Positions 27,064 to 33,739 of a stretch of 37,553 bases of DNA are shown here, one piece after another (the stretch's first letter is position 1; the number at the start of each line of letters is the position of its first letter). The position numbers and the translations under genes were made by a program. The notes under the pieces are model-generated. The model saw nothing but the letters and a program-made list of their open reading frames with translations, was not told the DNA's origin and ran no database searches. The stretch spans positions 1 to 37,553 of the forward strand of contig PEVN01000388.1 in NCBI GenBank assembly GCA_002779825.1, in the 5' to 3' direction. This DNA comes from Armatimonadetes bacterium CG06_land_8_20_14_3_00_66_21 (GTDB lineage Bacteria > Armatimonadota > Abditibacteriia > CG2-30-66-41).

Positions 27064-27912
27064 TCACAGGTGGTACACCTTCCCCAGGTGCACGCCCGAC
27101 ACGCGGACGATCACCAGCACTGCCACGGCCACAAGTACCATCAGCAACGACACTGCGACAGCCGCCTCGATGTTGCCGATACTCAGCTCTAAGAAGACGC
27201 TGGTGGAGAGCACTTCCGTCTTCCGCCGCGTCGCGCCGGAGAAGATGAGAATCGGCCCAAACTCGCCCAACGCCCGCGCCCAGGCCAGTGTCGCTGCCGC
27301 CAGGAGTCCGGTCCTCGCTTCCGGGAAGATCACCAGCCAGAACGCCTGACCGCGATTGCAGCCGAGGGTCAGCGCGACCTGTTCCTGGCGCGGGTTGATC
27401 TGGTCGAAGGCGACGCGCATCGTCCGCACGGCGAAGGCGCAGGCGACCATGAACTGGGCGGCGATCACGCTGGGGATCTCGTAGGCGACCTGGACCACGT
27501 GCTGCTGGAAGTACCGCCCGGCCGGCGTCTGGAAGAGGATGAGCAGGCTGAGACCGATCACCAGCGGCGGGAGCACGATGGGGATGTCGAGAATGGCGTC
27601 CAACAATGCCTTGCCGCGGAACTGGTGCCGTGAGAGCAGGTATCCGATCGGCACCGCCACCCACAGCGACATGATCGTGGTGATCGTGCAGGACAGCAGG
27701 CTGAGCTTGATGGCGTAGCGGATGTCGGCGCTGCGGAGCGCCTCCAGCAGGTGCCCGGGCGTGGTGAACGTCGCGTCCGCCAGGAGCATAGCGACGATGA
27801 CGGCGAGGTAGCTGGCGCTGAGCAACCCAAGCCCCAGGTAGAACGGAAAGTCGGAGGGCGGCCGAAACGTCGGTGGCGGGGTCGCCTTCTCAGCAGGCGC
27901 GGAAGCGGTCAT
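27064..27912 (-). CDS. ABC transporter permease, molybdate/tungstate (ModB/WtpB)-like
   Basis: 282 aa; multiple TM helices; EAA-like loop TLGCNRGQAFWLVIFPEARTGLLAAATLAWARALGEFGPILIFSG. Start overlaps the upstream gene's stop (ATGA). Confidence 0.85.
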   Translation of the reverse strand: MTASAPAEKATPPPTFRPPSDFPFYLGLGLLSASYLAVIVAMLLADATFTTPGHLLEALRSADIRYAIKLSLLSCTITTIMSLWVAVPIGYLLSRHQFRGKALLDAILDIPIVLPPLVIGLSLLILFQTPAGRYFQQHVVQVAYEIPSVIAAQFMVACAFAVRTMRVAFDQINPRQEQVALTLGCNRGQAFWLVIFPEARTGLLAAATLAWARALGEFGPILIFSGATRRKTEVLSTSVFLELSIGNIEAAVAVSLLMVLVAVAVLVIVRVSGVHLGKVYHL

Positions 27913-29426
27913 TGCTTCGGCTCGGGCGCCACCCAGTGGAACCCCTTCGAGAGGAACCGCTTCTTGGACTTGGCAGACTCGATGTCGGCGATGAGCCGCG
28001 CCACCAGATGGGGGCACTTGGTTGCCTTGGCGGCCGTGATGGGCTGGGTGGCCTTCGCGTTCTTGTCCGGGAGGTAGACGATCTCCAGCGTCTCGCCGAG
28101 CTTGCCGCAGTTCGCTTTGTAGACCACCACGGCGTCCAGCGATCCCGTGCCCGCCCTCAACTGGTTCACCAGGAGGTCCGCCGTCGGGGTCGAGGTCTTG
28201 ACGTTCTTCCAGACCTGCGCGTAGATCCCCTGTTCCTCCAGCAGCCGTTTGGTCAGCGCGCCGAGGGTGCTCTGCTCCGGGTTCGCCAGACCCAGCTTCA
28301 GCCCCGGCCGGGCCAGGTCTCTGAACGTCCTCAAGCCGAGCGGGTTGCCCTTGGGCACGAGCATGACAATCTCGGTGCTGGCGATATCCTGCGGCTCGAG
28401 AAACAGATCCGCCACCGGTGGCACGAACGACACGTCGCACGCCATGTAGGCGTCCGGCCGGCCGCCGGCTTTCATCTGCCCCACCAGGATGCCGCAGCCG
28501 TTGTAGACCGTGGAGATGCTGCACCCTTCGCGCGCCTCGAACTCGTGAACCGTGTCCTCGATGGCTACTCGGTTGACACCGCCACTGTAGAACAGGATCT
28601 CCGGTCTCTCGGCCCACACGTCCCCCTCGACCACTTCGTAGCCGTGCTCCGCAAACGTCTTCAGCCCCTTGTCCCTCGCACCGAGGTACCGGCAGAACCG
28701 GAGCGCTGCCGTCGGCTGCTTGCAGCTCTTGAGAACGCCAATCAGCACGTCCTTGGTCGCTTTGTCGAAGACCGGCACACGCACGGCCTCGATCTCCGGG
28801 TACTGGTTCGCCGTCGCGTCCCAGAGGATCGCCGCGTCGACGGAGCCGATCTTCAGGTCGTTGGCAAGGTCGGTCACCGTGGGCTTGAAGACGACGGCCG
28901 CCTCTTTCAGCCGCTCCCAGTGCCCGCTCTTCGTCAGCAACTCCTCGGTCAGCCGGCCGATGGACGCCGCCTCCGGGCTGCCCAACGCGACGCGCACCTC
29001 CTTGCGCAGCAGGTCGTCGAGGCCGCGGATGTGCTTCGGGTTCCCCTTGGCCACGCCGATGACCGGGCGCATCCGCGCCAGCGGAATGACTTCCTCGACC
29101 AGGTTCTTCTCGCGGGCGAGGTCGAGATAGCTCTGGTCGGCGGCGAGGAACAGGTCGCCGGTGTGCGTCACGGTGAGGCTGCTCAGCAGCGTCCCCGAGC
29201 CCTGGTACTGAGGCTCGATCTCCACGGAGTAGCGCCGTCCGTACTCCTGCGCCACTTCGTCCACCGGCTGCTTGAGGCCGGCCGCGCAGTAGAGGACGAG
29301 GTGCTGCCTCACCTTGCCGGGTGCTTGCGTGGTCGCGGTCGGTGCCGGTGCCTTCCTGTGCAGGAGGAGCACACACAGACCGAGGACCACGAGTGTTCCG
29401 AGCAGTGCTTTCCAGCCGGTATTCAT
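27909..29426 (-). CDS. Periplasmic substrate-binding protein with two tandem ModA-like domains
   Basis: 505 aa. First domain LVLYCAAGLKQPVDEVAQEY...GDLFLAADQSYLDLA...KGNPKHIRGLDDLLRKEVRVALGSPEAASIGRLTEELL...VDAAILWDATANQ. Second domain ILFYSGGVNRVAIEDTVHEFEAREGC...GNPLGLRTFRDLARPGLKLGLANPEQSTLGALTKRLLEEQG...SLDAVVVYKANC. Confidence 0.85.
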   Translation of the reverse strand: MNTGWKALLGTLVVLGLCVLLLHRKAPAPTATTQAPGKVRQHLVLYCAAGLKQPVDEVAQEYGRRYSVEIEPQYQGSGTLLSSLTVTHTGDLFLAADQSYLDLAREKNLVEEVIPLARMRPVIGVAKGNPKHIRGLDDLLRKEVRVALGSPEAASIGRLTEELLTKSGHWERLKEAAVVFKPTVTDLANDLKIGSVDAAILWDATANQYPEIEAVRVPVFDKATKDVLIGVLKSCKQPTAALRFCRYLGARDKGLKTFAEHGYEVVEGDVWAERPEILFYSGGVNRVAIEDTVHEFEAREGCSISTVYNGCGILVGQMKAGGRPDAYMACDVSFVPPVADLFLEPQDIASTEIVMLVPKGNPLGLRTFRDLARPGLKLGLANPEQSTLGALTKRLLEEQGIYAQVWKNVKTSTPTADLLVNQLRAGTGSLDAVVVYKANCGKLGETLEIVYLPDKNAKATQPITAAKATKCPHLVARLIADIESAKSKKRFLSKGFHWVAPEPKQ

Positions 29427-30916: not shown

Positions 30917-30990
30917 CTTCGGCCGCCCGGGCGCGCCGGAGGGTTGAGTTCTGCGGCGGATGAGAACGAGGTGGCTGCCGTGCCACTGGA

Positions 30991-31025
30991 CCCCAATCTA
31001 CAATCTGGGATCTGAGATCTGCACT
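30991..31025 (+). repeat. Degenerate period-7 repeat just upstream of the FtsX-like gene SD
   Basis: ccccaat ctacaat ctgggat ctgagat ctgcact. Confidence 0.65.
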
Positions 31026-31040
31026 CCGGTAGGAGGACCT

Positions 31041-32180
31041 ATGTCGGTTGCCGCCTTGTTGTTCAAAGAGATCCGGTTCCGCTGGCTGAGCTTTCTCCTC
31101 GGCCTGTTTGCCGTCGCCGCCGCGGTGACGCTGTTCGTCGCCCTGCTCAGCCTGGAGCGGGCTTCTGAGGACGAGACGCGGCGGCTCATGCGCGACCTGG
31201 GCTTCAACTTGGTCATCGTCCCCAAAGACACCAACATGGAGGACTTCTGGGCCAGCGACTTCGCGGACAAGGAGATGCCCGAGGAGTACGTGGAGCGCGT
31301 GGCTAACGCGAAGAACGTCAGTGCGGAGCATTACGTGGCGATGCTCCGGAAGCGCGTCGCGTGGCGCGGGAAGCAGGTTCTGCTGACCGGCGTGCTGCCG
31401 GAGTTGGGCGCGCTCGGGAAGAAGAAGAAGTCGCCGATGGGGTTCCAGATCCCGCCCGGGTCAGCGTATGTCGGCTACGAGCTGTGGCGCAGCCTGGGTA
31501 TCAGCGACGGCGACACCGTTGAGGTGCTGGGGAAGCGCCTGAAGGTCGTGCACTGCATGTTTGAGTCGGGGAGCAAAGACGACATCTCGCTCTATGCCCA
31601 CCTGCACGACGTGCAGGCGATGCTCGGCAAGCCCGGCAGGATCAACACCATCCAGGCACTTGGGTGCATGTGCTACGGGGAGCGGCTGCCTGTGCTCCGC
31701 CAGCAACTCAACGAGGCGCTGCCGGAAGCAAAGGTGTCGGAGATGTCCGCCATCGCCGAGGCGCGCTTAGAGACTCGGCACATGGTCGCCCAGTATGGCG
31801 GGCTCATTCTCCTGATCGTGCTGATTGTGGGCACGCTCTGGGTGGCGGTGCTGTCGTTCCTGAATGTCAGAGAGCGCGAGCAGGAAATCGGCATCCTGCG
31901 GGCGTTGGGGATTCGGTCGGGGCAGATCGCGTCCCTATTCCTCTGGCGGGCGGTCCTGACCGGGCTTGTCGGCGCGGTCGTGGGCTTTGCGGCTGGCACG
32001 ATGCTCTGCCTTCAGCTCGGCCCCGGTCTCTTCAAGATCACCCATGCGAAGATCGCGCCGCTGTACCCGTTGCTGGGCTGGTCCGTCCTGGTGGCGCCGC
32101 TCGTCGCCGCCGCCGCCAGCTTTCTTCCCACGATGGCCGCCGTGACCCAGGATCCGGCTGTGACACTGGTGAGGGAATAG
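31041..32180 (+). CDS. ABC transporter permease of the FtsX/MacB type
   Basis: AGGAGG SD, ATG 31041; one N-terminal TM, a large extracytoplasmic domain, then three TM helices with LNVREREQEIGILRALGIRSGQIASLFLWRAVLTGLVGAVVGFAAG. Confidence 0.85.
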   Translation: MSVAALLFKEIRFRWLSFLLGLFAVAAAVTLFVALLSLERASEDETRRLMRDLGFNLVIVPKDTNMEDFWASDFADKEMPEEYVERVANAKNVSAEHYVAMLRKRVAWRGKQVLLTGVLPELGALGKKKKSPMGFQIPPGSAYVGYELWRSLGISDGDTVEVLGKRLKVVHCMFESGSKDDISLYAHLHDVQAMLGKPGRINTIQALGCMCYGERLPVLRQQLNEALPEAKVSEMSAIAEARLETRHMVAQYGGLILLIVLIVGTLWVAVLSFLNVREREQEIGILRALGIRSGQIASLFLWRAVLTGLVGAVVGFAAGTMLCLQLGPGLFKITHAKIAPLYPLLGWSVLVAPLVAAAASFLPTMAAVTQDPAVTLVRE

Positions 32181-32183
32181 CTC

Positions 32184-32840
32184 ATGATCGCGCTGGAAAA
32201 CGTCCGGAAGGTATACCGCACCAAGCGTGGCGAGGTTCCGGCCTTGGACGGGGTCAGCTTCTCAGTTGCGGCGGGTGAGTTCCTCACTGTGCGGGGCCCC
32301 AGCGGCTGCGGCAAGTCGACGCTGCTCCTGACGATTGGCGGAATGGTGCGGCCAACCCAGGGCACAGTCACGGTGGACGGCAAAGACGTGTACGCCCTGT
32401 CCGCGGCGCAGCGCGCGGCATTCCGGGCGGACAACATTGGCTTCGTGTTCCAGATGTTCCACTTGGTGCCGTACCTGACGGTGCTGGAGAACGTGTTGCT
32501 GCCCACGGCCGCCGGGGGCGGGAGTGCCGGTGAGGCTGAAGCGCTCGCCTTGCTGGAGCGCTTCCGGATGACCGACCGCGCGCACCACAAACCGGCCGAA
32601 CTGAGCACCGGCGAACGCCAGCGCGCCGCGCTTGCCCGCGCGCTGCTGAGACGGCCGGGGCTCCTCCTGGCCGATGAGCCCACGGGCAACCTGGACCCGG
32701 AGAACGCCGCGGAAGTCATGAGCTATTTCACGGAGTACCATCACGAGGGCGGCACGGTGGTTCTGGTGACGCACGAACAAGCCGCTGCCGACCATGCTCA
32801 CCGGACCGTGACGATTCGCGGCGGGAAGCTCGCGCAGTGA
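32184..32840 (+). CDS. ABC transporter ATP-binding protein, LolD/MacB-like
   Basis: Walker A GPSGCGKST, NIGFVFQMFHLVPYLTVLENVLLP, LSTGERQRAALARALLRRPGLLLADEPTGNLD. Confidence 0.92.
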   Translation: MIALENVRKVYRTKRGEVPALDGVSFSVAAGEFLTVRGPSGCGKSTLLLTIGGMVRPTQGTVTVDGKDVYALSAAQRAAFRADNIGFVFQMFHLVPYLTVLENVLLPTAAGGGSAGEAEALALLERFRMTDRAHHKPAELSTGERQRAALARALLRRPGLLLADEPTGNLDPENAAEVMSYFTEYHHEGGTVVLVTHEQAAADHAHRTVTIRGGKLAQ

Positions 32841-33739
32841 TGAAAGCTCCCTCGAGGCGCGTTCCTTCTCGACCCACCGGCGCTGCGTCACTGACGATGG
32901 CTGCCGGTGTCTGCCTCGTTCTGGGGTGCGTCGTCGGCTGTCGGCGCGAAGTGCCAACGCCCGCGCGACCGGCTGGCGTCGGCGCAGGCGCACTGCCGCA
33001 GGGGCGAGCGGGGAAGGCTGAGCCCGGCAAACACTCCCTCACCCAAGTCAGGCTGCACCTGTACTGCGCCAGTGCGCTACAGGAAGCGGCCGACCGAGTC
33101 GCGGCTGCCTTCACCAAGGAGACGGGCGCCCTCGTGATCTGCGACTACGCTGGGGCTGGCGTGCTGCTGGCGCAGTTGCGAAAGGGTGTGGCGGGCGACG
33201 TGTTCCTGGCGGACGATGCCCACTACCTCTCCGCCGCCGCGAAGGAGGGCTTGGTCTATTCGCACGCCGAGGCGTACTACTTGACTCCCGTGCTGCTGGT
33301 GAAGACCGGGAATCCGAAGAGCGTCCGGGCGCTGAGGGATTTGACTCGGGCGGGCCTTCGCGTCGGGCTCGGGTCGCCCACGGCGTGCGCGATCGGGCGG
33401 GCGACGGAGGCGCTGCTGAAGGCGAGCGGCGCACGCCTAACGGCAGTGAAGCGGAACACGGTGTTCACTGCCATGTCGGTGGACGAACTGGTTGGGCAAG
33501 TCCGGGAGGGCAGACTGGACGCCGCCATCGTCTGGGATGCAACTGCCAGGCAGTCGCCCGGGGGGACCGATTTCGTGCCCATCCCGTCGGCCCGAACCGG
33601 ATCGGCGCGCGTATCTGTCGGGGTGCTGAAGACGACTCAGAACAAGGAACTCGCTGACCGCCTTGCCCACTTCGTTACGGGCGAGAGCGGCCGCGCGATT
33701 CTCCGGACACTGCAGTTCACGTTGCCCCCCCCGAACTGA
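32837..33739 (+). CDS. ModA-like substrate-binding lipoprotein
   Basis: 300 aa; start overlaps the ATPase stop. Lipobox-like VLGCVVGC; LHLYCASALQEAADRVAAAF...GDVFLADDAHYLSAA...KTGNPKSVRALRDLTRAGLRVGLGSPTACAIGRATEALLKASG...RLDAAIVWDATARQ. Confidence 0.85.
   Translation: MMKAPSRRVPSRPTGAASLTMAAGVCLVLGCVVGCRREVPTPARPAGVGAGALPQGRAGKAEPGKHSLTQVRLHLYCASALQEAADRVAAAFTKETGALVICDYAGAGVLLAQLRKGVAGDVFLADDAHYLSAAAKEGLVYSHAEAYYLTPVLLVKTGNPKSVRALRDLTRAGLRVGLGSPTACAIGRATEALLKASGARLTAVKRNTVFTAMSVDELVGQVREGRLDAAIVWDATARQSPGGTDFVPIPSARTGSARVSVGVLKTTQNKELADRLAHFVTGESGRAILRTLQFTLPPPN

Follow-up and report, generated by a model that had tools for sequence, protein, structure and literature searches.

A substrate-binding protein with two tandem ModA-type domains beside a ModBC-like importer in Armatimonadota and other phyla

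A precedent for two substrate-binding domains serving one ABC importer is GlnPQ, whose tandem domains bind their ligands independently and compete for docking (PMC8025302). The selenocysteine-assisted organometallic (SAO) system is reported to use selenocysteine-containing substrate-binding proteins (SBPs) and to be linked to metals (PMC13188914). A survey of molybdenum-using bacteria left 278 of 3683 without a known transporter (PMC6147048). No description of a tandem ModA-type SBP was found in the literature searched, most subscription papers being outside reach, so that absence is not proven. Here, a stretch of 37,553 nucleotides (the window; GCA_002779825.1, contig PEVN01000388.1) from Armatimonadetes bacterium CG06_land_8_20_14_3_00_66_21 was analysed, in which a sequence-only reading had proposed that the SBP of a ModBC-like importer is a 505-aa chain with two consecutive ModA-like domains.

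Architecture of the tandem protein and its operon

The features of the locus are collected in Table 1. Pfam SBP_bac_11 matches the 505-aa protein in two stretches (whole protein 1.7e-81), and the profiles of its two halves align with each other over 220 columns (hhalign; probability 99.9%, E 2e-31, 25% identity), so that the internal repeat is no chance likeness. An AlphaFold2 model built on a 12-row alignment (mean pLDDT 89.6) contains two complete α/β domains, at about residues 41-265 and 276-498, separated by a short linker (~268-273), close to the joint placed near residue ~275 from the letters alone. Foldseek aligned regions of ~230 residues with single ModA chains (TM 0.79-0.86 by target length), and the tandem proteins GlnPQ, EvgS and BvgS were also among the matches. 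The proposal was thereby borne out: the chain neither forms a single bilobed fold over its 505 residues nor has a domain match in one half only, and it differs in this from the single-domain ModA, WtpA and TupA. The motif that both halves had been said to share was only partly recovered: GRLTEELL of the N-domain corresponds to GALTKRLL of the C-domain, whereas in the pocket the N-domain reads YCAAG, GSGTLL and WDATANQY and the C-domain YSGG, GCGIL and ACD. A lipobox is found in 9 of 12 aligned family members, and a hydrophobic N-terminal anchor in the other three, the window protein included.

Table 1. Coordinates of the features of the tandem SBP locus in the window.
Feature	Position	Strand	Details
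Tandem substrate-binding protein (SBP)	27909..29426	minus	505 aa, ATG at 29426
N-terminal membrane anchor, residues 1-24	29355..29426	minus	Predicted helix 4-24 and comparison of N-termini
N-domain, residues 40-267	28626..29309	minus	ModA fold, 'core' clade; Ser77 (= ModA Ser39), Trp202 (= Tyr170), Cys47
C-domain, residues 274-500	27927..28607	minus	ModA fold, own clade; Cys311 (at ModA Ser39), Cys330, Tyr436 (= Tyr170)
Cys311 codon TGC	28494..28496	minus	ModA Ser39 position
Cys330 codon TGC	28437..28439	minus	ModA position 58
ModB-like permease, 282 aa	27064..27912	minus	BPD_transp_1 1e-15
ModC-like ATPase, 251 aa	26292..27047	minus	ABC_tran 2e-30; Walker A, LSGG and Walker B intact
FtsX-type permease	30960..32180	plus	Homologue of the FtsX found at tandem SBP loci of relatives
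LolD-type ATPase, FtsX partner	32184..32840	plus	
Single ModA-like SBP, 300 aa, second SBP gene of the locus	32837..33739	plus	SBP_bac_11 1.5e-46; core clade (tree)

Against the NCBIfam modA equivalog cut-off of 62.5 bits, the N- and C-halves score 57.8 and 32.8 bits, respectively, and the complete protein passes with 85.6 bits because the scores of its two domains sum; annotation pipelines may label such proteins 'ModA' on this account. As neither window half reaches the cut-off alone, the oxyanion-type assignment of the original reading is plausible only. The N-domain of one relative (locus L018) clears it by itself (71.7 bits).

The genes for the SBP, ModB and ModC follow one another on the minus strand, and those for FtsX, LolD and the single SBP lie upstream on the plus strand. 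The SBP stop codon and the ModB ATG overlap (ATGA), and translational coupling of the two genes is shown at the level of sequence. The permease scores 200 bits with TIGR01581 and 156 bits with TIGR02141, both under cut-off; in the comparison of the operon with curated models, ModB reaches 156 bits (cut-off 182.6) and ModC 170 bits (cut-off 285), the families being right. WtpC is the best NCBIfam match of the ATPase (199 bits, under cut-off), and no C-terminal regulatory domain was detected in this short protein. Neither a molybdenum cofactor (Moco) riboswitch nor another Rfam element was found near the operon in the window or in six relatives. The single SBP of the window reads YAGAGVLL (window:32837-33739), so that Ala takes the place of the pocket Ser found in almost every core domain.

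Distribution, linked genes and domain origins

The tandem SBP is a conserved family present over several phyla. A scan of genome contigs returned at least 12 loci, 11 of the 12 full-length (45-54% identity), from Flavobacteriaceae and other Bacteroidota, Candidatus Poribacteria, Verrucomicrobiales and Planctomycetota. A search of 290 other genomes from the window's own phylum yielded a full-length tandem in two, G274 and G275, and altogether 13 further full-length relatives of the double architecture were found. Matches in a plasmid collection were to single domains only, all over the N-domain. Wherever the contig extends far enough, ModB follows the tandem SBP, and ModC adjoins ModB in all of these loci except on the short G275 contig, where there is an overlap. 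In most loci a further set of genes, complete or in part, accompanies them, for MoaD, ThiF, FtsX, LolD, a PQQ/PA14 protein and a protein of ~366 aa; homologues of the PQQ protein and of the last, which belongs to no recognised family, lie on another contig (C183) of the window's genome. The ~366-aa protein has a conserved C-x-C and was modelled with two thioredoxin-like domains at moderate confidence (mean pLDDT 73.6). In a poribacterial MAG (L020) the N-domain is intact, and the C-domain persists as an in-frame remnant of ~115 aa without the Cys motifs, after which ModB comes directly.

Several loci carry further genes. In two flavobacteria, a class-III aminotransferase-like gene stands between the tandem SBP and ModB (L013:9414-10748 and L017:9401-10735), and a ThiF-type gene of greater length lies just upstream. 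One ORF (L011:11943-13799) starts like the cassette FtsX and continues as an SGNH-hydrolase-like protein, either a fusion or an assembly artefact. In G274, the genes for the tandem SBP, ModB and ModC are directly followed by those for a glycyl radical enzyme and its activase (L060:3752-6930); the enzyme was rejected as a clue to the substrate, since it falls under the curated cut-offs of all named enzymes and was not seen at the other loci.

In a tree of 129 SBP domains from tandem and related loci with four solved ModAs, the window N-domain falls in a 'core' clade with many single SBPs adjoining ModBC, and the C-domain in a separate clade of its own, members of which were never met alone beside ModBC in the loci surveyed. 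Grouping the window-type N- and C-domains as one clade was not rejected (AU p 0.71; the constrained tree scored above the free quick tree), so that internal duplication may have given rise to this tandem and fusion is not favoured over it. A second kind of tandem occurs in 20 proteins of the window's phylum, with the reverse order, that is, a core-type domain at the C-terminus and domains of other subfamilies at the N-terminus. One clade of window-type C-domains with second-type N-domains was rejected (AU p 0.018), which makes the two types different domain combinations, and the union of window-type with second-type N-domains was rejected more strongly still (AU p 6e-5).

The window's genome has a second importer locus on contig C349 (L026:4375-12092), in which four ORFs (226, 267, 541 and 399 aa, the 541-aa one being a tandem) with five ModA-type domains between them surround one ModB and one ModC, with a DUF318/SaoE-like permease adjoining. 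Nine genomes with second-type tandems have no matches for MoaA, MoaE or MoCoBD, some of them being 95-98% complete, which makes a molybdate role for the tandem unlikely there. Weak PF00384 matches occur in some of the nine; complex I subunits can also match PF00384. With second-type tandems in these relatives, which appear to lack Moco, and loci of up to five ModA-type domains, the wider SBP family probably carries more than molybdate. Single ModA-like SBPs at L026:6408-7211 and in nine relatives have CPPC at the ModA Ser39 loop and two more conserved Cys near ModA positions 153 and 173, possibly a four-Cys site.

Candidate ligands and roles of the two domains

The ligand residues of ModA, which we take to be Ser12, Ser39, Ala125, Val152 and Tyr170 (the letters were confirmed on the 1amf sequence), correspond to Gly, Ser, Ile, Val and Trp in the window N-domain and to Val, Cys, Leu, Ala and Tyr in the C-domain. 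The ModA set is thus not kept in the N-domain, where Ser12 has become Gly and Tyr170 Trp, a point against the molybdate or tungstate reading given below. Both Cys311 and Cys330 are Cys in 14/14 window-type C-domains, and Cys47 in 15/15 window-type N-domains. Among the roles first suggested for a double protein, that of two ligands or two functions agrees best with the pockets, which differ at all five aligned ligand positions; this divergence also disfavours avidity from two equal sites.

We tentatively favour, at somewhat less than an even chance, a double-headed, membrane-anchored SBP of a ModBC importer, in which the N-domain delivers a molybdenum- or tungsten-type ligand and the Cys-bearing C-domain is accessory. 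The N-domain would capture the transported ligand, most likely molybdate or tungstate, and dock on ModB; its role as the delivering domain is suggested by L020, which keeps it intact beside a decayed C-domain. The C-domain would most likely bind the ligand in a second, thiophilic form, bind a thiophilic partner of it or perform thiol redox chemistry, and might hand ligand to the N-domain or keep it near the importer, while the linked thioredoxin-fold protein could keep the thiols of the C-domain reduced.

The gene content of the host genomes bears on the ligand. MoaA occurs in 14 of 15 genomes with a window-type tandem (that of L020 included), the exception being an incomplete-looking MAG (G292), and MoaE in 11 of the 15, with no match in G292, the window's own genome, G274 or G275. 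In five genomes with both MoaA and MoaE (G293, G295, G296, G299 and G300), ModB of the tandem locus is the sole ModB-type permease at E<=1e-20, which suggests by elimination among ModB-type importers that the locus imports molybdenum or tungsten there, MOT1- and sulfate-type molybdenum uptake being other possible routes. Against the molybdate or tungstate reading stand the lack of MoaE matches in the window's genome, G274 and G275, the three more ModB-type permeases of the window's genome, and another ModB above the modB cut-off in each of G274, G275, G291, G294 and G301. A molybdate/tungstate-type ligand is accordingly only inferred for the window SBP. A second MoaD/ThiF pair adjoins the tandem SBP in most loci, separate from the copy in the Moco cluster; Moco clusters were read in four of the five sole-ModB genomes and have their own MoaD in 4/4 and ThiF in 2/4, so that the MoaD of the tandem locus is an extra copy. 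Aldehyde oxidoreductase was rejected as the partner of this pair, as PF01314 (aldehyde ferredoxin oxidoreductase, AOR) occurs in only 4 of 21 genomes. The window's genome lacks PF01314, as do 11 of the 12 that contain L009-L020; in this the locus departs from AOR-linked tungsten-cofactor MoaD clusters.

Alternatively, both domains may import a soft, thiol-binding metal or metalloid such as Cu(I), As(III), an organometal or a thio-oxyanion, the importer then being no molybdate system, which we consider unlikely. The reading draws on the wider family, in which most SBP subfamilies have conserved Cys of their own near the pocket (e.g. CPPC in one single-SBP group): of the 10 positions at which half or more of the members of a subfamily have Cys, 8 are no more than 3 residues away from one of the five ligand residues of ModA (hypergeometric p 5e-6, the 3-residue window having been picked post hoc, after the data were seen). 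The second-type tandems of the nine genomes without MoaA, MoaE or MoCoBD matches also agree with it, as do the DUF318-type permeases often found at second-type loci; among named families these permeases come closest to SaoE and SO_0444 Cu/Zn efflux, with scores far under the cut-off for either. However, the N-domain of the window type retains the serine of ModA Ser39 and has a single conserved Cys, and genomes with a window-type tandem have MoaA; in five of those that also have MoaE, the tandem belongs to the only ModB-type importer found.

It is improbable that the protein resembles GlnPQ in function, with both domains docking on one ModBC and delivering different oxyanions competitively or with different affinities. 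Its two complete folds with divergent pockets would suit such a scheme, as would the precedent of GlnPQ domains binding different amino acids independently and competing for docking (PMC8025302), but the C-domain type was never found alone beside ModBC, one lineage has lost most of it while keeping the N-domain, and a Cys occupies its pocket at the ligand Ser of ModA. That the C-domain senses ligand or redox state and thereby gates the N-domain or the importer is most improbable, and the sensory module of the sequence-only reading is disfavoured with it: the tandem periplasmic-binding folds of the BvgS and EvgS sensors and the invariant Cys311/Cys330 pair, a potential redox switch, are in its favour, but the only anchor is N-terminal, with no transmembrane signalling or cytoplasmic domain.

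Should the favoured reading of the N-domain be right, the locus would be a molybdenum or tungsten importer of flavobacteria and other phyla; should the Cys-pocket reading be right, a widespread 'ModA-like' family would transport something else. A broader proposal, that these loci represent an unrecognised class of multi-SBP, ModBC-powered importers for a thiophilic metal, metalloid or thio-oxyanion, is doubtful at present; if true, uptake or relay of the ligand would fall to different SBP domains with Cys in their pockets, as many as five in one locus and joined in at least two ways, and the dedicated MoaD/ThiF pair would supply sulfur chemistry in many loci.

Comparison with described systems

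The sensor kinases BvgS and EvgS share with the window SBP two tandem periplasmic-binding folds, whereas the latter has no signalling domain. The SAO system likewise employs more than one SBP, with Sec or Cys as the reported likely ligand-binding residues (PMC13188914), and a SaoE-like permease is found in second-type loci; the window locus, however, has no DUF318 permease, and the models of SaoB/SaoX and other Sao SBPs did not match the SBPs studied here. WtpABC and TupABC are close in that the window ATPase best matches WtpC, below cut-off, and that WtpA has the same general fold, but their SBPs are single-domain and the window proteins miss the curated cut-offs. GlnPQ also places two substrate-binding domains in one chain for one ABC importer; there they form one polypeptide with the permease and have amino acids as ligands, whereas the window SBP is a separate, anchored protein of the ModA class, its ORF overlapping that of ModB at ATGA. 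ModA (TIGR01256/SBP_bac_11) resembles each half in fold, in the ModB- and ModC-like partners and in the Ser39 equivalent of the N-domain, and differs in that the window SBP has two domains and a membrane anchor, and has Gly (N) or Val (C) at the position of Ser12, Trp at that of Tyr170 in the N-domain and Cys at that of Ser39 in the C-domain.
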